Assembly (NCBI GenBank): GCA_005116745.1
Contig: SWDS01000002.1
Coordinates: 444,311 to 508,310 of the forward strand
From: Nitrospira sp.
GTDB lineage: Bacteria > Nitrospirota > Nitrospiria > Nitrospirales > Nitrospiraceae
DNA: 64,000 nt
Direction: 5' to 3'
Shown here: in pieces, positions 11,331 through 63,449 of the stretch
Layout: each line of letters begins with the position of its first letter
Position numbering within the stretch: the stretch's first letter is position 1
Translations under genes and position numbers: made by a program
Notes under the pieces: model-generated
What the model was told of the DNA's origin: nothing
Database searches by the model: none
What the model saw: the letters and a program-made list of their open reading frames with translations, nothing else

Positions 11331-12314
11331 CTATTTGCGCTTCGTAGAAGTTTCCACACCTGACTGTCGTCGACCGCGCTGTCGCGGAAAGTATTGGCGA
11401 TGGACGTGCCGTAACCGGCTGCCTTCCACATGCGTATAGATTTGAGTCGTCGCGATGTCTGCATGCCCCAACATGGATTGCACCACTCGCAAATCTGCTC
11501 CCCCCTCCAGCAGATGCGTGGCAAAAGAATGCCGCAACATGTGCGGAGAAATCGATTTCGAAATACCAGCGCGTCGGGCTCGCTGCAGAAGCAGCTTCCA
11601 AAATGCCTGCCTCGTCAGTCCTCGTCCTCGCCGGCTGATGAACAAGACACGGGACGATCGCCCTTTGAGTAGAAGGGGTCTCACATGTTCGACGTAATCA
11701 ACCAGGATCTTGACCGCAGTCTGTCCAATCGGGACGACTCGCTCCTTAGCACCTTTCCCTACGACTCGCACACAGCCCAGATTCACATCGATCTGCGACA
11801 GACTGAGTCCAACAAGCTCTGACACGCGAAGACCCGCCGCATACAGCACTTCCAGCATCACGCGGTCGCGTTGATCCTCAGCACGACCGCGAACCGGCAG
11901 CTCTAGCAACACCGTTATTTCCTGGTGTGTCAGCGTCTTCGGTAATCGAACCGGCCGATGCGCCGCCGTCATATCACGGAGAGGACTGGTCTTCACGAGG
12001 TGTTCCCGAACCAGAAAGCGATACCACCCTCGCATCGCCGAGAGAAGGCGAGCAATCGATGAAGCCGCGAGGGCCTCGTGTTTGAGGGTTGCGAGAAAGG
12101 ACCGGATCGTGTGCGGTGGAACGGAGTCTCCGATACTGAGTCGGTGCGACAACAAGTATCGCTGCAAACGTAAAAGATCTCGCCGGTAGGACTCCAGCGT
12201 ATTAGCGGCTAATCCACCTTCAATCCGCAGCTCACTGAGATACCGTTCAAGCAAAGGGTCCAGCAATGGTGCCGTTGGTTCAGCCATGGCGGTCGATGAA
12301 TGAACTATAGCCAA
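11331..12314 (-). CDS. xerD: Tyrosine recombinase XerC/XerD
   Basis: Chromosome-dimer resolution recombinase acting at dif with a partner Xer and FtsK. All catalytic residues are present: R163 (GLRVSELVGL), K187 (GKGAKERVVP), H258-x-x-R261 (HMLRHSFATHLLEGGAD), H284 (LGHADIATTQ) and the nucleophile Y293 (IYTHV). The SAM-like core-binding domain occupies about 17-105. At 327 aa it is slightly long because of a basic tail after residue 310. The start may be the ATG at 12314 or residue 10 (12287). XerC and XerD cannot be separated by eye. It lies beside two tRNAs but has the look of the housekeeping enzyme rather than an island integrase. Confidence 0.9.
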   Translation of the reverse strand: MAIVHSSTAMAEPTAPLLDPLLERYLSELRIEGGLAANTLESYRRDLLRLQRYLLSHRLSIGDSVPPHTIRSFLATLKHEALAASSIARLLSAMRGWYRFLVREHLVKTSPLRDMTAAHRPVRLPKTLTHQEITVLLELPVRGRAEDQRDRVMLEVLYAAGLRVSELVGLSLSQIDVNLGCVRVVGKGAKERVVPIGQTAVKILVDYVEHVRPLLLKGRSSRVLFISRRGRGLTRQAFWKLLLQRARRAGISKSISPHMLRHSFATHLLEGGADLRVVQSMLGHADIATTQIYTHVEGSRLRHVHRQYFPRQRGRRQSGVETSTKRK

Positions 12315-45232: not shown

Positions 45233-45541
45233 TCAGAATTTCGGCTTCATGTCCTTCAACGAATCGCCACCTTTTTTCAGGAGGTCTCCTCCAGGAGTGC
45301 CATCACCTTGTGGAGACAGACTGCTCAGTTGCTCCTTGACCTGTTTCACTATCCCCATATTCTTTTGAAGATCGTCGACATTCTTCTGCATATCCACCAA
45401 CGCACTGCCGAGCTGGCTCACCGACGTCGAAAGCCCAAAGATTCCTTGGGCAGCTGCATAGTGCAGAGAGAGCCCTCCCAGCCCAAAGCCCATAATGAAT
45501 GCCGACACGATCATGATGGATAGCCAAGATCTGTTCTGCAT
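45233..45541 (-). CDS. Small exported or membrane-anchored coiled-coil protein
   Basis: 102 aa from the ATG at 45541, preceded by a strong AAGGAGGAG; the longer frame to 45757 has no such support. An N-terminal hydrophobic segment (IMIVSAFIMGFGLGGLSLHY) ending in AAAQG may be a signal peptide or anchor. It is followed by a heptad-like region (SVSQLGSALVDMQKNVDDL) and a Gly/Lys tail. Not recognised. It precedes the MlaC-like gene by 58 bases on the same strand, so the two are likely co-transcribed. Confidence 0.6.
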   Translation of the reverse strand: MQNRSWLSIMIVSAFIMGFGLGGLSLHYAAAQGIFGLSTSVSQLGSALVDMQKNVDDLQKNMGIVKQVKEQLSSLSPQGDGTPGGDLLKKGGDSLKDMKPKF

Positions 45542-45848
45542 ATTCTCCTCCTTTGCGGTTCCTTGCGGGCTACGTGCTCTGACCACTGTCAGATTCGCCG
45601 CATCCTGATTTTTTGTTGGTTGCCTTCTTTCGACCTCGTGATAATCTGATCTTTGATCTTGTCGTAGGTCATCATCCTGCCCTCTAGCCTTTGAACAGGC
45701 CATACGCAGGATCCCAAGGATGAGCCATATCCCTGAGAACCTGCGCGGCACCACCACTTAAAGCAGAGTGACGCCTGACGGAACTTGACACCGGTATGAA
45801 CAGAGATCCCCCAACAGAGGCCTACTCAACTACGAACGCTCACGCCCA
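45542..45848. other. 307-base gap upstream of the small coiled-coil gene
   Basis: No gene supported. It should hold the promoter for the minus-strand pair starting at 45541; I could not place a convincing -35/-10 pair. Confidence 0.35.
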
Positions 45849-46025
45849 TTACGGCTTGACAGTTGCCGTCCGGTCCGTCCGGCCCATCAGAGTCAGAAGA
45901 GTGTGAGCCACGAGGAGGAAACCCAGCCCGCCGCTGGGGATATATCCCCAGGTTCCGCCGTACGACCAGATCGGAAGTACGCCGACACACAACACACCCA
46001 ATACGACAATAATAATAGTACTCAT
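45849..46025 (-). CDS. DUF3309 family small membrane protein
   Basis: 58 aa from the ATG at 46025 with AAGGAGA upstream. One hydrophobic helix at the start (STIIIVVLGVLCVGVLPIW), the family's YGGTWGYIPSGGLG motif, then a second hydrophobic stretch (FLLVAHTLLTLMG). DUF3309 proteins are tiny membrane proteins of unknown role, often beside CsbD and DUF1328 genes as here. Confidence 0.82.
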   Translation of the reverse strand: MSTIIIVVLGVLCVGVLPIWSYGGTWGYIPSGGLGFLLVAHTLLTLMGRTDRTATVKP

Positions 46026-46275
46026 CTTGATTCTCCTTATGTTCGCACATTCACCGCGCACTCGATTATTCTGTGGCCATACAGGCCACCGTCACAACTT
46101 CGGCTCGCCGGACGGATGTCTGCTATCACGGGATGAGAGACGACTGGGCACCTAGACTCCAGCATAGCGAGAGGCCAGCTGATAATCTGGTCAAAACAGC
46201 TCAGACGAAGAAAGAGGCAAGGCGGTAGACCACAATCACGATAATAGAACTGGCCGTCGCATTGTTCAGGCAGTT

Positions 46276-46506
46276 CTACTTGGCTTCCGTACAGTTCAAT
46301 TCATCCCGCACAAGTCCCAGATGGGTTCGCTCCCGCCGAAGTCTCTGCATGTGCGCCTGGATATCGGCCAACATACAATCGATTTCCCGCACCCTGCTCG
46401 TCCGACCGGCCGGCCTGCGGCGAACGGACTGCCGACTCTCCTCACCGTTCATGACGCTCGCCGAAGTCTGGGATACACCTGATACGTCGTGCTTCTCGAG
46501 TTTCAT
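46276..46506 (-). CDS. Small basic hypothetical protein
   Basis: 76 aa from the ATG at 46506, which has GGAGG 5 bases upstream; the frame is open further but without another ribosome site. The middle is Arg-rich (SVRRRPAGRTSRVREID) and the C-terminal part is a likely amphipathic helix (ADIQAHMQRLRRERTHLG). No known domain. It follows the CxxC protein gene by 70 bases and is probably in the same transcript. Confidence 0.5.
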   Translation of the reverse strand: MKLEKHDVSGVSQTSASVMNGEESRQSVRRRPAGRTSRVREIDCMLADIQAHMQRLRRERTHLGLVRDELNCTEAK

Positions 46507-46576
46507 CCTTGCCTCCTCCTTACTACCCGCCATAGGTTTAGCTCCTTCCAGATGCATTCGCCGCAGCAGCGAATGC

Positions 46577-46819
46577 TCATCGGAGCGATGCATACACTTC
46601 CGAGGGAATCGTGATGCGTTCAACGTCCCTCGTCCTGACCCTCCTGCGCGGGGTCACCCGCATGTTCTCCGAACGGCGGAAACGATTTGCACGAACGACG
46701 GCATCCTCGATACACCCACAATTGATGCAGCGTGTAGCCCTGTAGAGAGAGTCTGTTCCGCTGCTCAGATCATCGAATGTCTCGCACACCAATAGCCCTC
46801 GACAGCGTTGGCAGACCAT
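46577..46819 (-). CDS. Small CxxC (zinc-ribbon-like) protein
   Basis: 80 aa from the ATG at 46819, behind AAGGAGG. Two cysteine pairs (MVCQRCRG and RCINCGC) spaced about 30 residues apart could bind one zinc ion; the C-terminal half is Arg-rich (RVTPRRRVRTRDVER). The family is unrecognised; the layout suggests a small nucleic-acid- or protein-binding zinc protein. Confidence 0.55.
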   Translation of the reverse strand: MVCQRCRGLLVCETFDDLSSGTDSLYRATRCINCGCIEDAVVRANRFRRSENMRVTPRRRVRTRDVERITIPSEVYASLR

Positions 46820-47108
46820 AGGTCCTCCTTCTGCGCCAATGGCGCACATATGACACACCAGACACGGACGTCACATGACCTCTCGCCATCACGCTCAGTC
46901 CCTCACGAGACTGGGCAAGTTCTCCACATACACTTCTTCTTGCGCCGGAAGTATCCACGACTACCTCACTAGGGGTAAGCATACGGGAGTAGCCGGCCGC
47001 AGTCTGTTCACAATTGCTCAGTAGGGAACGATTGCACAATGGAGGCGAGGCGGAACGTAGCCAGGTCTAACGTGATTGAATTAAAGAACCAGAATCAGAG
47101 GGGAGACC

Positions 47109-47498
47109 CTAGTCGTGCAGGACGACGTTGAGAAGAGAACTATGCACGTGCAATCCGCCATTCCGGCGCGACCCACCTTGATAGTCAATGAACCCGAGCT
47201 TGCGGAACTTATTCATGAAAAAACTGACGCGTGAGCGGGTGGTGCCAACCATTTCGGTCAAGGTTTCCTGACTGATCTTCGCAATGACCGTCTCCGGCTT
47301 GCCTTCCTTCCCAAAGTGGGCCAACAACAGCAACGCCCGCGCCAGCCGCTTCTCGCTGGAATTAAACAGTTGATCCACTAAATCCTTCTGGACTCGGATC
47401 GAGTGCTTCAGTAAATAAGACATGAACGCCGAGGCGAACTCGGGCTGCTCTTGAAGCTGATTTAGATAGAAACACCAGGTCATCGCAGAACACACCAT
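47109..47498 (-). pseudogene. Crp/Fnr-family regulator, C-terminal half only
   Basis: 129-aa frame carrying the dimer helix (SYLLKHSIRVQKDLVDQLFN) and the winged helix-turn-helix (KISQETLTEMVGTTRSRVSF then KFRKLGFIDYQGG) of a Crp/Fnr regulator. The cNMP-binding beta-roll that should precede it (about 110 residues) is absent: upstream sequence in all three frames shows no FxxGD/roll motifs. The first residues, MVCSAMTWC, do not match any family start. Probably a deletion remnant; a short DNA-binding-only protein cannot be excluded. Confidence 0.7.
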
Positions 47499-47695
47499 AC
47501 AACGGCAGGTGCAAGCCTATCAATGGGTTTGTGGCCTGTCGTTGTTCCTTGTGTTCTCCTGTTCCCTGCCCGAACCGTGACTGAAACCGGAAAGTATTTT
47601 CGTCGATCTTGGCGGAAGACCCCTCGGGGCTTTGTCCGATTCCCGGGGTAGGTCTTTGAGTCTCGACACCTATCCATGCATAAATCGAAAGCATC

Positions 47696-47714
47696 TCCCC
47701 GGGGGGACACCCCC
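47696..47714. repeat. GC hairpin upstream of the Crp remnant
   Basis: GGGGG (47702-47706), loop ACA, CCCCC (47710-47714), with additional C/G runs just before it. It lies in the region where the missing Crp sensor domain should be. Function unknown. Confidence 0.4.
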
Positions 47715-47857
47715 AGGACCTTCACAAATGAACGCGTTTAAACAGGGAACTCCTCGAAAAGGAAAACCTGGCAACTCGTCACGGCGCTTTATCTGTAAGA
47801 ACTTGGATTTGATCGGGCAGGTCGTGGCAGAACATAGTCCCGGTGACCGGCAGGTCG

Positions 47858-47894
47858 CGACCCTGAGTAGACGTACATGACCGACCGCTACCAG
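47858..47894 (+). repeat. Diverged third copy of the intercassette repeat
   Basis: From CGACCC at 47858 to CTACCAG at 47894 this stretch matches the repeats at 49616 and 50476 at about 29 of 36 positions against the 49616 copy. All three encode D-P-x-x-x-x-x-T-D-R-Y-Q in one frame. At 48056-48079, about 200 bases on, there is also a partial match to the conserved pre-ATG element of the other modules (AACGTT ... CACCATG). Confidence 0.45.
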
Positions 47895-48020
47895 GGAGTC
47901 AGGACGCACATCGCGTCTGCAGGTGTCGATACTTCAGGAGAGCTCGGGCTGAGGCACGAAACGGGAATGTCCCGATCCACTGTGCGGCAGCTGGTCACTC
48001 GCTATTCGCGTAAGAGATGA
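47877..48020 (+). CDS. Possible 47-aa helix-turn-helix-like peptide
   Basis: An ATG inside the diverged repeat opens a 47-codon frame ending at TGA 48018-48020. It begins MTDRYQGVRTHI and ends with ETGMSRSTVRQLVTRYSRKR, which has the look of the second half of a helix-turn-helix with a basic tail. No ribosome site is visible. It may be a real small gene or a remnant of the protein encoded by the repeat family. Confidence 0.25.
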   Translation: MTDRYQGVRTHIASAGVDTSGELGLRHETGMSRSTVRQLVTRYSRKR

Positions 48021-48078
48021 AACCAACGACCAGGAGCATGAGTGCCATGAACGCGAACGTTATGAGGATGCTCACCAT
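47995..48078 (-). CDS. Possible 27-aa single-helix membrane peptide
   Basis: ATG at 48078 opens MVSILITFAFMALMLLVVG followed by a short polar tail and a stop at 47995-47997: one transmembrane helix. AAAGG lies 7 bases upstream. It overlaps the 47-aa frame on the opposite strand. Too short to be sure; listed because the surrounding region is rich in tiny membrane proteins. Confidence 0.25.
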   Translation of the reverse strand: MVSILITFAFMALMLLVVGFISYANSE

Positions 48079-48289
48079 GTCTATGCCTTTTGATCGAGCC
48101 AAGAACGCTTATGGAAAGATACACATGCGCATCAGTCGTATCATCGCCACCCAACAGCAGAAGACGGCGATAGGGAGCTGGTCCTAAGCAGGGGAAGTAC
48201 AAGGTGTGCGCGGAGCATCAGGAAGACTCCATCATCGCGTAGGCGTCAGAACGCCTTGCCTGATGCCCCATCCCTCGATCAACGCAACA

Positions 48290-48766
48290 CTAGCCAACCT
48301 GGATCTCAATGGCTTTCGGCTTTGCCTTCACAGATTTCGGGAGATGCACCCGAAGCATCCCGTCGTTAAAGTCCGCGGCCACCTTACTCCCATCCGCATC
48401 CTCCGGAAGTGAGAAACTGCGCACGAAGCTCCCGTAGGCGCGTTCGACCCGGTGATACTTCTTGCTCTTTTCTTCCTTCTCAAATTTCCGCTCGCCGGAA
48501 ATCGCCAGGACATCGTTCTCGACCGTGAGACGCACGTCCTCTTTCTTCATATCAGGCAATTCGGCTTTGATCAGGTATTCTTTCTCATCTTCAATAATAT
48601 CCACCAGCGGCGACCATTGAGTCACCGTCAGGGCTTCCTTTCCTCCGTTGCCCGTCGCCTCTCGACCGGCAAACAGCGTCGCCAGATGGCTTTCCAGTTC
48701 ATCCCGATCCTTGAACGGATTCCACCGAGTTCTGCTCATTGGATCCCAGCGTAAGATAGTGTTCAT
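48290..48766 (-). CDS. Hsp20/alpha-crystallin small heat-shock protein
   Basis: ATP-independent holdase of 158 aa. The N-terminus (ILRWDPMSRTRWNPFKD) is of the bacterial class A type. The alpha-crystallin domain spans about 50-145 (PLVDIIEDEKEYLIKAELPD, VENDVLAISGER, YGSFVRSFSLPEDADG, FNDGMLRVHLPK). The tail has the I-x-I/V oligomerisation motif (IEIQV). Ribosome site AAGGAG upstream. It lies 57 bases downstream of the CsbD gene on the same strand; the two are probably expressed together under stress. Confidence 0.94.
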   Translation of the reverse strand: MNTILRWDPMSRTRWNPFKDRDELESHLATLFAGREATGNGGKEALTVTQWSPLVDIIEDEKEYLIKAELPDMKKEDVRLTVENDVLAISGERKFEKEEKSKKYHRVERAYGSFVRSFSLPEDADGSKVAADFNDGMLRVHLPKSVKAKPKAIEIQVG

Positions 48767-48823
48767 GGCCTCATCTCCTTGTTGTCATAACAGTATTCGA
48801 CATCTCTGATTGATCGATTCCGG

Positions 48824-49051
48824 TCACTGGATCTTTTTCCCCGCCTTGGCCGACGGAGCCTTGTGGTACCACTGATCCGCCCACTTCATCAGCTCACGCT
48901 TCTTATCGCCATACCGTTCCTGCGCTTTGGCGACAAATCTGTCGTAGTTCCCTCCAATCTCCTGGAGATCATTGTCCGTAAACTTACCCCACTTCTCTTT
49001 GAGTTCACCTTTGAACTGCATCCATTTTCCTTTGAGTTGTTCGGCATTCAT
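48824..49051 (-). CDS. CsbD-family stress protein
   Basis: 75 aa, starting MNAEQLKGKWMQFKGELKEK, the canonical CsbD opening, with KFTDNDLQEIGGNYDRF and RYGDKKRELMKWADQW. Members are induced by general stress (sigma-B in Bacillus) and have no known biochemical function. AGGAGG precedes the ATG. First of a CsbD-Hsp20 pair. Confidence 0.92.
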   Translation of the reverse strand: MNAEQLKGKWMQFKGELKEKWGKFTDNDLQEIGGNYDRFVAKAQERYGDKKRELMKWADQWYHKAPSAKAGKKIQ

Positions 49052-49132
49052 CGCATGGTCCTCCTTATTTATAATTGACCTGAGGGCTGGGTCGTCATGC
49101 TGGAAACCACCAGATAACCCGTCACCCCTCGG

Positions 49133-49300
49133 TCACACCGGGCGGGTCGTGTGCCCCGTGATCCAATGAATCACCAGCAACACGATCCCGGTTACGAACA
49201 GCATCCACGAAATCTGCACCGCGACCGTCGAGATCCCAGCGAGATTCAGCGCACCGGCAATCAAGCCGACGACCAGGAACATCAGCGCGTAATAGAGCAT
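49133..49300 (-). CDS. DUF1328 family small membrane protein (YtjA-like)
   Basis: 55 aa from the ATG at 49300, behind GAGGAG. Two hydrophobic helices: YYALMFLVVGLIAGALNLAG and a second around WMLFVTGIVLLVIHWITG. The GLIAGALNLAGIS pattern is diagnostic of DUF1328. Role unknown; often linked to stress genes, as here with CsbD upstream of Hsp20. Confidence 0.88.
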   Translation of the reverse strand: MLYYALMFLVVGLIAGALNLAGISTVAVQISWMLFVTGIVLLVIHWITGHTTRPV

Positions 49301-49615
49301 GGGTGCTCCTCTCTGATGGAATACGGATGTGAATCGATCAGTCCTCTGCGGCATGGCCGGCGTCCTGGCCGCCTCCATCAGCAGGCCATACCACCAGACA
49401 AGCAACGAGTCAGAGAGACTGTGATGTAAACGCGGCGGAGACTGGGGAATCGGTCACGCTGGGAAGGGTCAGGAAGCGCGAGAGATGGGACAGCCAGCGG
49501 GGCTTCACACCTGACACCATCACCCTGGGCGCAATGAGGGCAGGAGTCAAGCGATATAAATTGCGTGGAATCTGAGACAAGATCGGACAGATGCTGTCGG
49601 AAGCAAGCGAGAGGT
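49301..49615. other. 315-base gap before the first cassette-like module
   Basis: No gene supported; the only open frame is antisense and has no ribosome site. Serves as upstream region of the DUF1328 gene. Confidence 0.35.
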
Positions 49616-49684
49616 TCCGACCCAAAGCAGAAGTATACGACTGACCGCTACCAGAAGAGGAGCTTATGCCGATCCGCATAAGAC
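49616..49684 (+). repeat. 69-bp intercassette repeat, copy A
   Basis: Identical at 63 of 69 positions to the copy at 50476-50544 and starting exactly 860 bases before it. Contains GACTGACCGCTACCAGAAG and ends in a hairpin CTTATGC-CGATCC-GCATAAG (7-bp perfect stem). Sits 204 bases before the GTTAG of the pre-ATG element of the PIN gene. Confidence 0.8.
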
Positions 49685-49805
49685 GACGATCTCATCGCGG
49701 TAGTGGAGCGGAACTTGTCCTGCTGCAATGGGCTAGGGCTGGCGATCGGTGCTTACCCGCCGGTTTAGGCAGAAGTGGACAATCTGCTGTAACGGGATTA
49801 TACAG

Positions 49806-49836
49806 TCTGTCTAAACATTGTTAGAGCGTACCCATG
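49806..49836 (+). repeat. attC-like 3' end in front of the PIN gene
   Basis: A GTCTAAAC-ATT-GTTAGAG block at 49809-49826 runs directly into the ATG at 49834. It parallels the element at 50666-50695 (shared TC-GTCTAAAC-TTGTTAG-CG-ACC-ATG pattern). In integron cassettes the R' box GTTRRRY sits at exactly this place relative to the next gene. A full attC stem is less clear here than at the second site. Confidence 0.5.
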
Positions 49837-50328
49837 CACGGAGTGCCAAACGACGCGGCGACGAAAAAGTTCGTGTGGGATACGTCTGCGCTTCTCAACA
49901 TCAAGGAGCCTAACGGTCAGGGATATTCACCGGGGCATAGCTTCTACAAGGACTTTTCGGACGGTTGGCTCTCCGGACCTTACTTCAACATCTATCCCGC
50001 AATCGCCGTCTTCGAGCTTCAAGCATCAGTTTCGCGCGCACATCGCGAAGGGCGAAAGATGCTTCGTGATTTCTACATTGTGAGCGAGAACTCCGTGGTC
50101 TACCCCATCGACCAGGAACTTATCTCTCGCTGCGCAGATCTCTTCGATAAGCCTGGTTTCTCAAGCCTTCGCGGCGGCGACTTGATCTTCGCCTGTATTG
50201 CACGCATTGAGGATGCCTATCTTGTAACTCTAGACAAAGGTTTTAGCCTCGTTGCCGATCACATCCGCGTTATTGATCTGAATGAGAGTCGGGACTCAGC
50301 AAAGTATCGTAACCTGTTTCGTGATTAA
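49834..50328 (+). CDS. PIN-domain protein (VapC-like ribonuclease)
   Basis: 164 aa. The four acidic residues of a PIN nuclease can be placed: D16 (FVWDTSALL), E61 (AVFELQAS), D116 (GGDLIFACIAR) and D134 (LVTLDKGF). It is longer than a typical 130-aa VapC, with an extra segment after the first strand. No antitoxin gene is visible upstream: the ATG lies 14 bases after the putative attC cut point, so the gene would be the first ORF of its cassette. The target RNA and whether it is a toxin are unknown. Confidence 0.75.
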   Translation: MHGVPNDAATKKFVWDTSALLNIKEPNGQGYSPGHSFYKDFSDGWLSGPYFNIYPAIAVFELQASVSRAHREGRKMLRDFYIVSENSVVYPIDQELISRCADLFDKPGFSSLRGGDLIFACIARIEDAYLVTLDKGFSLVADHIRVIDLNESRDSAKYRNLFRD

Positions 50329-50475
50329 ACGCGGGGTGCCGATGCGTTTTAACCAGCGGCTGGTGCGGACGTGAGAACTGGCCGTGTGTCTCGTTCAGGG
50401 CTGTGCAGGGGCCGCTTTATGGTAGTGCGATCTTGGCGCCGAACTTCAGCTTTTGGCCGTTCTGCGACCGTCATG

Positions 50476-50544
50476 TCCGACCCAAAACAGAAGTCCACGA
50501 CTGACCGCTACCAGAAGAGGGTCTGATGCCGATCCGCATAAGAC
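50476..50544 (+). repeat. 69-bp intercassette repeat, copy B
   Basis: Second copy of the repeat at 49616-49684 (6 differences). One frame reads MSDPKQKSTTDRYQKRV then stops. The terminal hairpin has one mismatch in this copy (CTGATGC with GCATAAG). It lies 148 bases after the PIN stop and 204 bases before the GTTAG at 50680. Confidence 0.8.
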
Positions 50545-50630
50545 CCGGTCATACATGTCGACGGGCCGTCAGTCATAGCACCGTCATTGATGATGGGATA
50601 TTGTTTATGATCATTGAATATGTGTTACGC

Positions 50631-50687
50631 GGCTAGAACATGGCGGATCCGGTTCTTATTTATGGTCCGCCTAAACGTTGTTAGGCC
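50631..50687 (+). repeat. Candidate attC recombination site
   Basis: About 57 bases that fold like an integron attC. GGCTAGAAC (50631-50639, R''-like) pairs with GTTGTTAGGCC (R') with one bulge, and GGCGGA (50642-50647, L'') pairs perfectly with TCCGCC (50666-50671, L'). The loop is 18 bases. The R' box GTTAGGC at 50680-50686 matches GTTRRRY. The R'' box is degenerate. The next ATG is at 50693. Confidence 0.55.
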
Positions 50688-50692
50688 GCACC

Positions 50693-50887
50693 ATGACTAT
50701 GCGTGAGCGCTTCAAAGAGCCGCAGATCAACCCGACCTGGGAACAGGTCGTCGAGCGCGAGCCACTGATGGCGTTCTCCTTTTACTTGTCCGGGCGAGTG
50801 AACGTGCTTCTCGCTCTGAAGGATGAGATCCTCGGACACCTTGATCAGGGTTTCTCTGCGGCGTGCGTCACCCTTAATAGCGCTTGA
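50693..50887 (+). pseudogene. Small cassette ORF, probably truncated
   Basis: 64 aa beginning MTMRERFKEPQINPTWEQVV with an amphipathic middle (LSGRVNVLLALKDEILGHLD) and ending abruptly in GFSAACVTLNSA. The first 55 residues look like a well-formed soluble helical protein. The last ten read like out-of-frame sequence, so a 3' truncation or frameshift is likely. Function unknown. It starts 12 bases after the attC-like cut site, as a cassette gene would. Confidence 0.45.
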
Positions 50888-51092
50888 CTCTGATGCCTAA
50901 TGCGCCCAGGGTGAACCTATGACGTACTGAGCCACGCCGACCGTCCTATCCTCGCGCGTCACATTCTCTCCCTCCCATGTCTTGCGCGACCGATTCCCTG
51001 GTCTCCGCCGCTTTTTCGCCGAATGTTCCTCGAAATCCCTGTGTCGATGCCCTGGGCCCAAGAGCTTTGATTGCTTGGGGTGGCAGAGGTGC

Positions 51093-51110
51093 CTCCACAC
51101 GGGAGTGGAG
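51093..51110. terminator. Hairpin upstream of the ErpA-like gene
   Basis: CTCCAC (51093-51098), loop ACGGGA, GTGGAG (51105-51110). No T-run. Could end transcription from the left or be part of a leader. Confidence 0.35.
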
Positions 51111-51119
51111 CTGAGGTCT

Positions 51120-51138
51120 ATTGACCACATCAGTCAAT
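51120..51138 (+). promoter_or_regulatory. Inverted repeat ATTGAC-N7-GTCAAT before the erpA-like/por operon
   Basis: Perfect 6-bp arms at 51120-51125 and 51133-51138 separated by 7 bases, 20 bases upstream of the ATG at 51158. The geometry suits a dimeric regulator, but it lies so near the ribosome site (AAAAGGAG) that it might also be an mRNA structure. Confidence 0.45.
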
Positions 51139-51157
51139 GCAGAAAAGGAGCACTGCC

Positions 51158-51478
51158 ATGATTACGATCACACCGACGGCAGAAGGAAAGATCCGAGAAC
51201 TCATGCAGGAAGAGAAAGATACGGTTGGCCTACGTGTCTACGTAAAGGGCGGTGGGTGCCATGGCTATCAGTACGGGATGGCCTTCGAGTCCGTCATGAG
51301 TGAAGACGACACCGTCATCGAGAAAGGTGACGTCAAGGTCATCATGGACTCCCAGAGCGCCCCATTGCTGGTCGGCTGCGAAGTCGATTTTCACGACAGC
51401 GTGCAAGGCTCCGGCTTTGAGATCAAGAACCCACAAGCCAAAACGACCTGTGGGTGCGGCAGTTCATTCAGCGCATAA
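51158..51478 (+). CDS. IscA/ErpA-type iron-sulfur carrier protein
   Basis: A-type carrier that delivers [Fe-S] clusters to apo-enzymes; 106 aa from the ATG at 51158 with AAAAGGAG upstream. The three conserved cysteines are visible: one in VKGGGCHGYQYGM and two in TTCGCGSSF at the C-terminus. Its position 60 bases ahead of the 2-oxoacid:ferredoxin oxidoreductase alpha subunit suggests it matures that cluster-dependent enzyme or its ferredoxin partner. Confidence 0.9.
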   Translation: MITITPTAEGKIRELMQEEKDTVGLRVYVKGGGCHGYQYGMAFESVMSEDDTVIEKGDVKVIMDSQSAPLLVGCEVDFHDSVQGSGFEIKNPQAKTTCGCGSSFSA

Positions 51479-51537
51479 CGTCCTCACACGGTGCGCCGAA
51501 TCGCCGGCCACCGCCGTTCGATAGAAAGGAACTAGCC

Positions 51538-52746
51538 ATGGACAGTACAGCCATCATCGGAACCACGAATAAGAAGGGGCAAGTCATCACCGATCCACGC
51601 GTGATGATGAACGACGCGCCTCGCACGGCGTCGTTTTTTACCGGCAGCGAAGTCATTAAGGAAGCCGTCAGGCGTGCGAACGTCGATGTAATGGTGGCCT
51701 ATCCCATCACACCTCAGAGCGAGGCAGCCGCCCTGTGCGGCGAGCTCTTTGCCGAGGGTTATATCGGCGACTATTTCCGTGGGGAAAGTGAATTTGCGGT
51801 CATGTCCCAATGCGCCGGCGCCGCCTTTGGCGGGGCCCGTGTCTTCACGACGACTGCCGGACCGGGCACGATGCGGGCCATGGAAAACTTTCCGATGTGG
51901 GCCGGATCCCGATTACCGATCCAATGTATCGTCACCTGCCGGGGCATCAATTCCCCCTTGTCGATCCAACCGGACACGATCGAGATCGCCTACCTGATGA
52001 ATACGGGCATGCTCGTCTGGCACGCGGAAACCGCGCAGGATTTCTACGACTGGATTCTCAAGGGTTATATGGTGTCGGAAGAGCCGGACGTGCATTTACC
52101 CTTGGCTCTCTGTTGCGACGGCTTCTTCGTGACCCATACGAAAGACGTCGTTGACCTGACACCCGCCGACATGTGCCTGCCGCCTTATGATCCCTATCGC
52201 TCACCCGTCCCCTGCATGGATATGGAGTGTCCCCCGGTCAGGATGATGCGCGATCCCTTCGTGATGAAGAGCAACTACATCAGCTACGCCACGCACGCGA
52301 GCTGGCAACAGGAAATCTGGGCCGCTGCGGAACGCTCGCGCAAGCACACGATCGCCTGGCTGGATGGCTTGATCGAGACAGAGGACGTCGATGCCGACAT
52401 CCTCATCGTCTCCTCAGGAACAGCCGTCTCCCAGGGGCGGGAAGCCATCCGCCTACTGGCTGATGAAGGGATTCGCGTCGGGCTGGTGAAAATCAAAACC
52501 CTACGACCATGGCCGGAGGAAGAACTTCTCGAGGCGACCAAACATGCCTCACATATCATCGTGCCTGAGTTCAATGTCATCGGATGGATGGCTAAAGAAA
52601 TCAAAGCCACGATCCCGAATAGTAAGCGAGTCGTCGCCGGACCGCGCGTCTGCGGCGGCATGACCTTGCCACCGGAAGTCATTGTGGAGGAAGTCAAGAA
52701 AGCGATCGGTATGCGATCCGGCGTATTGGCAGGACGTGGCGGATGA
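51538..52746 (+). CDS. porA: 2-oxoacid:ferredoxin oxidoreductase alpha subunit
   Basis: 402 aa from the ATG at 51538 (GAAAGGAA upstream). The pyrimidine-binding region of the TPP enzyme family is recognisable: VMVAYPITPQSEAAALCGEL, GESEFAVMSQCAGAAFGGAR and TTAGPGTMRAMENFPMWAG. The C-terminal transketolase-like domain follows (DILIVSSGTAVSQGREAIRL). It oxidises or reductively forms pyruvate or 2-oxoglutarate with CoA and ferredoxin; I cannot tell which 2-oxoacid from sequence. In autotrophs of the Nitrospira type this serves the reductive TCA cycle. Confidence 0.9.
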   Translation: MDSTAIIGTTNKKGQVITDPRVMMNDAPRTASFFTGSEVIKEAVRRANVDVMVAYPITPQSEAAALCGELFAEGYIGDYFRGESEFAVMSQCAGAAFGGARVFTTTAGPGTMRAMENFPMWAGSRLPIQCIVTCRGINSPLSIQPDTIEIAYLMNTGMLVWHAETAQDFYDWILKGYMVSEEPDVHLPLALCCDGFFVTHTKDVVDLTPADMCLPPYDPYRSPVPCMDMECPPVRMMRDPFVMKSNYISYATHASWQQEIWAAAERSRKHTIAWLDGLIETEDVDADILIVSSGTAVSQGREAIRLLADEGIRVGLVKIKTLRPWPEEELLEATKHASHIIVPEFNVIGWMAKEIKATIPNSKRVVAGPRVCGGMTLPPEVIVEEVKKAIGMRSGVLAGRGG

Positions 52747-56647: not shown

Positions 56648-57973
56648 ATGGGCAACGGTGTCACCCAGATCAGACGGTCCGTGATGACGTTGGCACTTCC
56701 CGTCACGCTGACCACGCTGCTCCAACGAGCCGAAGGCATTGTCGCCGTCTTCTTAGTCGGGGGGCTGGGTGCCACATCAATCGCCGCAGTCGGTCTGGGT
56801 CAACTGCTGGCCTTCGTGGCCACGACTCTGGTCTCTGGAATTTCAGTCGGGACCAATGTGATCGTTGCCCAGTTATGGGGAGCGCGGCGTCGACAAGACG
56901 CCGGAGAAGCGGCTCGTCACTTCTTATGGCTTTCGATCGGCGTCTCGATCCTGTTGGCTGGCCTTGGGATCGCCGGCAATCTGCTCGTCATGCAGCAACT
57001 CGGTGCGGAATCCGCTGTCATTGAGCTCGCCCTCCCCTATTCGACACTCATCTTCCTCGTGATTCCCTGTACGGTCCTCATCCAGGTCTTGTCGTCCATC
57101 CTCCAAGGCACTGGCGACACAAAGACCCCGATGTATGGTCTGATCGGTGTCAACCTCCTCCATGTATTTCTGGCCTACCCCCTCATCTACGGACAGTGGG
57201 GAGCTCCTGCAATGGGACTCAAAGGCGCGGCGATCGCCGTCGGCGTCGCCGAAGTGACAGGCATGTTCTATCTGCTGCTGCGTTGTCGCCCCATCTTGAA
57301 GCAGTCGTCCACACTGCGCCTCGACCTGATTCGATCGATCTGGGATGTTGGAGCGTCGGTCTCCGGCGAACGCATCGTGCAACAGGCGGGTATCTTCATC
57401 TACACCAAACTCGTCCTCCTCTACGGCACCGTGGCCTATGCCGCGCATCAAGTCGGGTTGTCGATTGAATCCTTTTCGTTCCTACCCGGCTATGGACTTG
57501 CCATTGCTGCCGCCACCATGGTGGGCCAAAGCATCGGAGCCGGGAAGTATACCAGAGCGAAACTCGAAAACTGGGAAGCCAATCGGCTGGCCATTATGAT
57601 CATGACCGGTATGGGAATCCTTTTTTTCTTCTTTCCGTACACGTTGCTTCATGCCTTCACAACCGATGACGCGGTGATCGAGCTTGGAACGACATTTTTA
57701 AAGATTGTTGCCTTACTTCAAGTGCCGCTGGCCCTCACCATGGTGTTAGCCGGATCGCTACGGGGTGCAGGCGACACCCGCTTCATCATGGGTGCCACGA
57801 TGATCGGTATGTGGGGTGTCCGCGTGCCCTTGGCACTGGTCGCGGCCCTCTGGCTACGCCAGTCCGTCTCATTCATCTGGGCTGCGATGATCGCGGATTG
57901 GACTGTGCGGATGGGGTTGTTGCTCTGGCGATATCAGTCCGAACGCTGGCGGCAGATTCAGGTGATTCGGTAA
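56648..57973 (+). CDS. MATE family efflux transporter
   Basis: 441 aa, about twelve hydrophobic helices, with the two-fold repeat typical of NorM/DinF transporters: the first half has PVTLTTLLQRAEGIVAVFLV and YSTLIFLVIPCTVLIQVLSS, the second MVLAGSLRGAGDTRFIMGAT. Exports cationic drugs or metabolites in exchange for H+ or Na+. The last 21 codons occur again at 63384-63449 with synonymous changes, so its 3' end has been the site of a recombination event. Confidence 0.92.
   Translation: MGNGVTQIRRSVMTLALPVTLTTLLQRAEGIVAVFLVGGLGATSIAAVGLGQLLAFVATTLVSGISVGTNVIVAQLWGARRRQDAGEAARHFLWLSIGVSILLAGLGIAGNLLVMQQLGAESAVIELALPYSTLIFLVIPCTVLIQVLSSILQGTGDTKTPMYGLIGVNLLHVFLAYPLIYGQWGAPAMGLKGAAIAVGVAEVTGMFYLLLRCRPILKQSSTLRLDLIRSIWDVGASVSGERIVQQAGIFIYTKLVLLYGTVAYAAHQVGLSIESFSFLPGYGLAIAAATMVGQSIGAGKYTRAKLENWEANRLAIMIMTGMGILFFFFPYTLLHAFTTDDAVIELGTTFLKIVALLQVPLALTMVLAGSLRGAGDTRFIMGATMIGMWGVRVPLALVAALWLRQSVSFIWAAMIADWTVRMGLLLWRYQSERWRQIQVIR
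57908..57973 (+). repeat. Islet boundary repeat, left copy (MATE gene 3' end)
   Basis: The last 21 codons and stop codon of the MATE gene (R-M-G-L-L-L-W-R-Y-Q ... V-I-R-stop). A second copy is found at 63384-63449 in the same orientation. The two encode identical residues but differ at six or so third-codon positions. Confidence 0.85.
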
Positions 57974-63383: not shown

Positions 63384-63449
63384 CGGATGGGGTTGTTGCT
63401 CTGGCGCTATCAATCGGAACGCTGGCGGCAGATTCAGGTCATTCGATGA
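63384..63449 (+). repeat. Islet boundary repeat, right copy (orphan MATE 3' end)
   Basis: Stand-alone copy of the last 21 codons of the MATE gene, protein-identical to 57908-57970 but with synonymous differences (CGC for CGA, CAA for CAG, TCG for TCC, GTC for GTG, CGA for CGG) and TGA in place of TAA. No other MATE sequence is present, so it is a displaced 3' fragment. Confidence 0.85.

Follow-up and report, generated by a model that had tools for sequence, protein, structure and literature searches.

The repeats at one locus in a 64,000-nucleotide stretch of a Nitrospira sp. genome (the whole stretch is called the window, and coordinates refer to it unless a contig or locus is named) are best explained, with a probability of roughly 0.8, as one complete and one truncated mini-integron that lack an integrase and have two copies of a predicted attI site with its promoter region. 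The textbook integron pairs a single integrase with a single attI and a single promoter, and of the cassettes arrayed behind them the distal ones are expressed only weakly. The unit proposed here would consist of a left end (R69a), an attI region (hairpin, cassette promoter, L and R boxes), a cassette inserted at G|TT and a right end (A), and A would continue straight from attI if the cassette were absent. The L and R boxes of the attI would be where the integron integrase (IntI) recombines; cassettes may have come in by attI x attC recombination, with IntI acting in trans or before its gene (intI) was lost; and the attI promoter would transcribe the cassette. Since a promoter is predicted within attI, each unit would drive its own cassette, in contrast to cassettes in the tail of an ordinary array.

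Repeats and features of the window locus

The first-pass annotation had reported two 69-bp repeats (49616-49684 and 50476-50544) with an 860-bp offset, and sequence comparison agrees: the copies are identical at 63 of 69 positions, their starts are 860 bp apart, and the repeat is non-random (genome-wide E 5e-22). Each 69-mer consists of the 38-bp left end R69a of a unit fused to the attI hairpin, and the CTTATGC/GCATAAG hairpin that had been proposed as a second conserved element is indeed found in the family. The middles, which lie between the repeats and GTTAG (49820 and 50680), are dissimilar as described: BLASTN of one against the other gave no match, and a profile of the second type (M2) touched one copy of the first (M1) at an E of merely 0.007, so the modules do not align as duplicates even with a profile, and simple tandem duplication had been rightly doubted. 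The equal distance of about 204 bp from repeat to GTTAG also holds, because the distance from the start of R69a to the end of the R box is constant across the whole family (204-219 bp in 29 copies from many species); the 860-bp period is the length of the first module, comprising the PIN cassette, the right end and the next left end. The genome (3.86 Mb in 32 contigs) has seven complete or partial copies of the 69-mer, and searches of it with longer queries gave more related loci on three contigs. A scan of 47500-52000 against Rfam found no match. Overlooked in the first pass were a third, shorter relative of the 69-mer (47852-47894), the right-end element A (50394-50475) and the inverted flanks (49428-49459 and 50984-51015). 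As read from the following features, unit 1 (49618-50475) appears to be complete and unit 2 (from 50478) appears to be truncated at 50871.

47852..47894, + strand: extra R69a-like left end, without attI (profile match 47858-47894, E 5.3e-9; 79% versus the 49612 copy)
49281..49616, + strand: left syntenic flank (LDR) of the unit-array locus, in many genus genomes; adjoins a small DUF1328-like membrane-protein ORF
49428..49459, + strand: left inverted-repeat arm in the flank, 88% complementary over 32 nt to 50984-51015
49618..49655, + strand: left end R69a of unit 1 (profile E 6.5e-12)
49659..49684, + strand: hairpin CTTATGCCGATCCGCATAAG of unit 1, left portion of the putative attI region (HP profile)
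49685..49826, + strand: putative attI of unit 1, type M1, by homology to DNA after intI or intI fragments
49810-49816, + strand: L box TCTAAAC of unit 1, within the M1 attI
49820-49826, + strand: R box GTTAGAG of unit 1, within the M1 attI
49821..50393, + strand: predicted cassette 1, crossover G|TT to G|TT (attI similarity stops at 49824; A starts at GTTC, 50393)
49834..50328, + strand: gene for a PIN-domain protein of 164 aa (PF01850, E 2.5e-7)
50347..50399, + strand: possible decayed attC of cassette 1 (TTTTAAC...GTTCAGG), weak, as 17% of shuffles equal its score
50394..50475, + strand: element A as the right end of unit 1, with the junction leading into unit 2 (profile match to A at 50409-50462, E 3.9e-14; 39-sequence alignment A2)
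50478..50515, + strand: left end R69a of unit 2 (profile E 2e-11)
50519..50557, + strand: hairpin region TGATGCCGATCCGCATAAGAC of unit 2, left portion of the putative attI region (HP profile E 4e-10)
50559..50686, + strand: putative attI of unit 2, type M2 (profile E 3.1e-26), a type found after intI in G051
50599-50604, + strand: -10-like TATTGT of unit 2; the -35 is degenerate in the window copy
50670-50676, + strand: L box CCTAAAC of unit 2, within the M2 attI
50680-50686, + strand: R box GTTAGGC of unit 2, within the M2 attI
50693..50887, + strand: cassette 2 gene, cut at the right flank; no Pfam match; the ORF enters flank DNA at 50871, the base at which the flank starts in every genome compared
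50871..51160, + strand: right syntenic flank (TAIL) with inverted-repeat arm 50984-51015; BLAST matches begin at the same base in many genomes

The two arms belong to a wider inverted match of the flanks (70% over 142 bp), and the left arm lies within a dispersed repeat of about 140 bp; the flank repeats at 49428-49560 and 50874-51015 are 70% inverted copies, and the dispersed repeat has several copies per genome across the genus. Behind the R69a-like end at 47838-47935 lies a different interior (GTCAGGACGCACATCGCGTCTGCAGGTGTCGATACTTCA), also present in loci L116 and L102 of relatives, and this end appears to represent a second element family with a common left end. Elsewhere in the window, 1.9 kb (45541-47457) is 97% identical to 591000-592916 of contig C10 of the same genome, apparently a recent duplication, and a 62-bp direct repeat (57908-57969 and 63384-63445) is 94% identical.

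Modules related to the attI sites of two integrase lineages

The middles served as queries (M1, 49685-49824; M2, 50545-50684) in searches of loci of the same genus. M1 matches the DNA that immediately follows intI, or a fragment of it, in the genomes G023, G041, G018 (contig C3), G030 and G049, and M2 matches the DNA 3' of intI in G051 and 3' of both C-terminal intI fragments in the genome of the window. Compared by their C-termini, the IntI proteins split in two just as the attI types do: those linked to M1 are 88-97% alike, those linked to M2 (G051 and contig C10 of G000) are 93% alike, and the likeness between the groups is 66-78%. The 3' ends of the modules (consensus CCTAAACATAGTTAGGC) hold the L and R boxes of attI, YYTAAAC and GTTAG; the family alignment has YYTAARC-N3-GTTAG, and some R boxes in the family carry mutations. 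The attI1 site has CCCTAAA as its L box and GTTRRRY as its R box (PMC12901181), and the combination of an L box with GTTRRRY by which an attI is recognised is present here. Similarity among the modules stops at G|TTAG, where cassettes start. The homology to post-intI DNA, the L and R boxes and this stop argue that the M1 and M2 modules are putative attI sites of two IntI lineages. A hairpin like CTTATGCCGATCCGCATAAG comes right after the intI stop codon in relatives, and the hairpin upstream of the window's M1 module would correspond to the portion of attI that adjoins this stop codon. Units with an M1 attI are mostly joined to an M2-type hairpin, which implies that hairpin and attI have been exchanged.

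A promoter-like pair (TTGMAN-N17-TATTNT) is found at a fixed position in 23 of 28 M2 copies, versus 0.4% of shuffles, and is absent in its conserved form from the M2 copy of unit 2 in the window. An attC site is recognised by an R'' (RYYYAAC) paired with R', pairing of L' with L'' and a position 3' of a gene, a set of features that the modules do not have; no conserved R'' AAC was found in alignment A1, and no attC was called at the module sites. The first-pass view of cassette-type recombination sites before genes is thus upheld as to integron type and cassette context; the type of site is predicted to be the R box of attI, not attC.

Architecture, distribution and cargo of the units

The order within a unit is R69a (38 bp), hairpin, promoter/attI, G|TTRR, one or more genes, often a classical attC, and GTTAATGCGACAGGG-A. 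A profile search of the first set of loci found 62 right ends (A), 56 left ends (R69a) and 60 attI copies, and within each locus the units stand in tandem (R69a - attI - gene - A - R69a), with all 178 of these features on a single strand of their locus. Typically 17 bp separate A from the R69a that follows (junctions are mostly 9-20 bp), attI and A lie about 1 kb apart with an open reading frame between them in each case, and an array starts without A and ends without R69a. The same rule of order and strand holds in 62 more loci that were retrieved by an attI pattern alone, which come from named genomes and include several first-set contigs under public names. About 12 units have R69a and A and no detectable attI. 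In the loci of relatives the 69-mer is tied to cassette contexts, as the first-pass annotation had expected, and is not found mostly outside them.

Classical attC sites precede A at several loci (L105 9008-9103, L109 7533, L099 14744 and L098 12208), and L189, from another genus, offers a clear example; ahead of A, conservation sets in at GTTA. For these two reasons the candidate reading of A plus R69a as one long attC was dropped. With a relaxed scoring heuristic, checked against shuffled sequences, an attC score of at least 10 was obtained upstream of 26% of A copies versus 1.9% of shuffles, and a convincing attC lies upstream of under half of the A copies. From the attC before A and the GTTA border, the sequence expected for a cassette-free unit is attI-GTTAATGC-A; when 175 genomes were searched for this pattern, a single empty unit turned up (G065, where R69a has been lost), and the reversed control pattern had no match.

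In L114 (8400-8450) and L118 (near 6438), a hairpin without an ORF (CGACGCT...GCGTCG) and then GGCCCCGCGG follow attI in the cassette position. In L189 (4290-5402), a toxin-antitoxin-like gene pair bounded by GGTGCTGTCCTAATT/AATTAGGACAGCACC lies within the attI region; the DNA between hairpin and attI in L189 and L188 was considered as a candidate intI, and was found instead to be a toxin-antitoxin-like insert and a cassette with attC.

Modules are present in 39 of 59 genomes of the genus, and right ends are present in 40 of the 295 Nitrospirota genomes sampled, which belong to four genera of one family (Nitrospiraceae) except for one genome of a sister family. A 21-base attI pattern matched 62 stretches among 84,980 species genomes, in records named Nitrospira, Nitrospirae, Nitrospirales, Nitrospiraceae or Nitrospirota, the exception being two contigs of one assembly labelled Nitrosospira, which is a mislabelled record. 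A search of plasmids found no match. The flanks of the window locus (49281-49616 and 50871-51160) recur in many species of the genus, separated by 0.2 kb in G060 and 0.27 kb in G005, both without a unit, by 1.2 kb in the window and by up to 9.35 kb of units in G029. At a second locus, flanked by genes for an SNase-like protein and a pseudouridine synthase, G000 and G054 have different genes; since different genes occupy the same loci in different species, the place and the frame persist and the cassettes differ. No clean unit-free version of the SNase-pseudouridine synthase locus was found, and A remnants are present there in several genomes. The G054 array at the locus syntenic with the window contains a reverse transcriptase ORF (L102:6698-8038, - strand), possibly that of a group II intron protein.

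Cargo was checked with one ORF from each unit, using 20 units for comparison with Pfam and 40 for comparison with PADLOC. Strong matches were obtained to GajA (E 4e-214) in one unit of G057, with a helicase-like ORF alongside; to GajB (E 2e-236) in one unit of G033, with an ATPase-like ORF alongside (both neighbours were labelled by eye only); to Drt5 (E 2e-194) in a unit of G061; and, in G037, to an Mrr-type restriction enzyme and TIR proteins. No match in Pfam or PADLOC was obtained for most other cassettes checked, and the PIN gene of the window had none in PADLOC. The relatives' units at L098:14495-18305, L111:2055-5685, L172:6439-7938 and L097:3339-9225 hold Gabija-like pairs, Drt5, Mrr-type and TIR-domain genes. 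Phage-defence genes are thus among the cargo of some units.

Integrase loss, spread of the units and related systems

The first-pass statement that the window encodes no integron integrase is correct: the XerD-like recombinase at 11331-12314 (- strand) scores 84 bits against TIGR02249, far under the cut-off of 265 bits. The search for intI elsewhere in the genome, which the first pass had recommended, returned just two C-terminal fragments (contigs C10 and C7) and no full gene; because intI is left solely in this form, the units of this genome are probably frozen. Full-length intI above the cut-off is present in 8 of 79 genus genomes, and none was found adjoining attI in the window or at the unit loci. 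By its parts the locus is an integron; it does not belong with complete integrons, in which intI stands next to attI, because intI is missing. Neither R69a nor A was ever observed beside an intact intI in the loci examined, and for this reason it is loci with remnants of intI that link the unit ends to a complete integron. One of these (G037) reads A - R69a - IntI C-terminal remnant - M1 attI - TIR-domain gene, an arrangement that would represent an intermediate of intI loss; another (L235 of G255) is a unit with A that holds an intI remnant; and in G030 an intI fragment with an M1 attI is placed at the insertion point of an M2 attI.

Multiplication of the units may have occurred by transposition of a non-autonomous unit, at which the imperfect inverted ends only hint, or by homologous recombination between copies of R69a or A. 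A class 1 integron reportedly lies between two copies of one MITE. A serious candidate, at somewhat less than even odds, is that R69a...A is a MITE-like non-autonomous transposon that includes attI and is moved whole with the help of a transposase. The many dispersed copies are consistent with such movement, as are the inverted ends of a single unit in G042 (35/43 identical) and of the array in the genome of the window (29/40), and 21 pairs of left and right ends average 10.6 versus 7.7 (sd 1.5) for shuffles. However, most pairs are not significant singly, the consensus R69a is not significantly similar to the reverse complement of A (p 0.28), and no target-site duplication was recognised, no clean empty target was found and no transposase was identified. 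The mini-integron architecture is therefore the reading adopted here, with transposition of the units as a possibility.

It is unlikely that plain decay accounts for the family, with independent ordinary integrons losing intI and most cassettes and the repeats being leftover attI heads that form no unit of their own. Remnants of intI at several loci, the scarcity of intact intI and the mutated R boxes would fit decay, but the common non-integron ends R69a and A, their fixed order and junctions of mostly 9-20 bp are not expected from independent decay, R69a and A were not seen with intact intI, and the joining of M1 attI to M2-type hairpins in several units indicates exchanged parts. Also improbable is that IntI exchanges the segments A-R69a-attI as attI-bearing cassettes. 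Their left border is G|TTAATGC and their right border G|TTAG, each of them a crossover point, and the insertion point in G030 would suit such an exchange, but the terminal structure of the arrays fits R69a...A units better. The first-pass proposal of a new attC subfamily, represented by the conserved ends at cassette borders, for which the GTTAG end, the gene start straight after it, the hairpin near this end and the true cassette-type context had spoken, is very improbable and already largely refuted, given that the element lies 5' of the gene and in relatives comes straight after intI, R'' AAC is unconserved, and genes have separate classical attCs on their 3' side, ahead of A.

The preferred reading, that of mini-integrons without an integrase, shares features with several known systems. 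Intact Nitrospira integrons have a GTT R box and attC sites, and their intI points in the direction of attI and the cassettes; in this they resemble the chromosomal integrons of the Treponema type, in which intI runs towards attI (PMC3607928). Unlike that type, the units have no intI, usually one cassette, a predicted promoter/attI per cassette, and the ends R69a and A. Two CALIN (attC clusters without intI) have been described in Candidatus Nitrospira inopinata (PMC9024848), the only ones that this survey reports for the family. The units are like CALIN in that their cassette genes have attC while an integrase is missing from the neighbourhood, and this label is plausible for some arrays of relatives; CALIN are defined by attC only (at least two, without intI), whereas the units keep attI and a predicted promoter, A-R69a-attI separates their attCs, and the window has at most one weak attC. 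The delta-attI-type cassettes of class 1 integrons, with a truncated attI in place of attC at the 3' end of the gene (PMC12901181), likewise have attI sequence inside arrays and away from intI, but here a full attI precedes each gene, A follows it, and attC is kept where detectable. The MITE-flanked class 1 integron (Gillings 2009, in the form in which PMC8618304 cites it) and integron mobilization units likewise have an integron part between short non-coding ends; in contrast, R69a differs in sequence from A, to which it has weak similarity in inverted orientation, and the units are tandem and free of intI. CALIN, delta-attI cassettes and MITE-borne integrons thus each have one aspect in common with the units, and none has the repeated attI-per-cassette arrangement. 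A literature search, which covered few subscription papers and preprints, found no account of this arrangement or of multiple attI sites.

The predicted attI and promoter region is repeated before single cassettes in a nitrifying family in which the integrase is gone from most genomes, and searches based on attC only would overlook such units. A tentative extension, to which somewhat less than an even chance is given, is a Nitrospiraceae integron format of dispersed, intI-free mobile units of promoter, attI and cassette that stand in tandem and are served by IntI in trans from elsewhere; equally tentatively, every cassette, whole phage-defence operons included, would in that format have its own promoter and docking site. 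If confirmed, the finding would mean that attI can multiply and spread without intI, would explain expressed cassettes deep in arrays, and would reveal a reservoir of cargo that includes Gabija-like pairs, a DRT type 5 reverse transcriptase, Mrr-type enzymes and TIR proteins.
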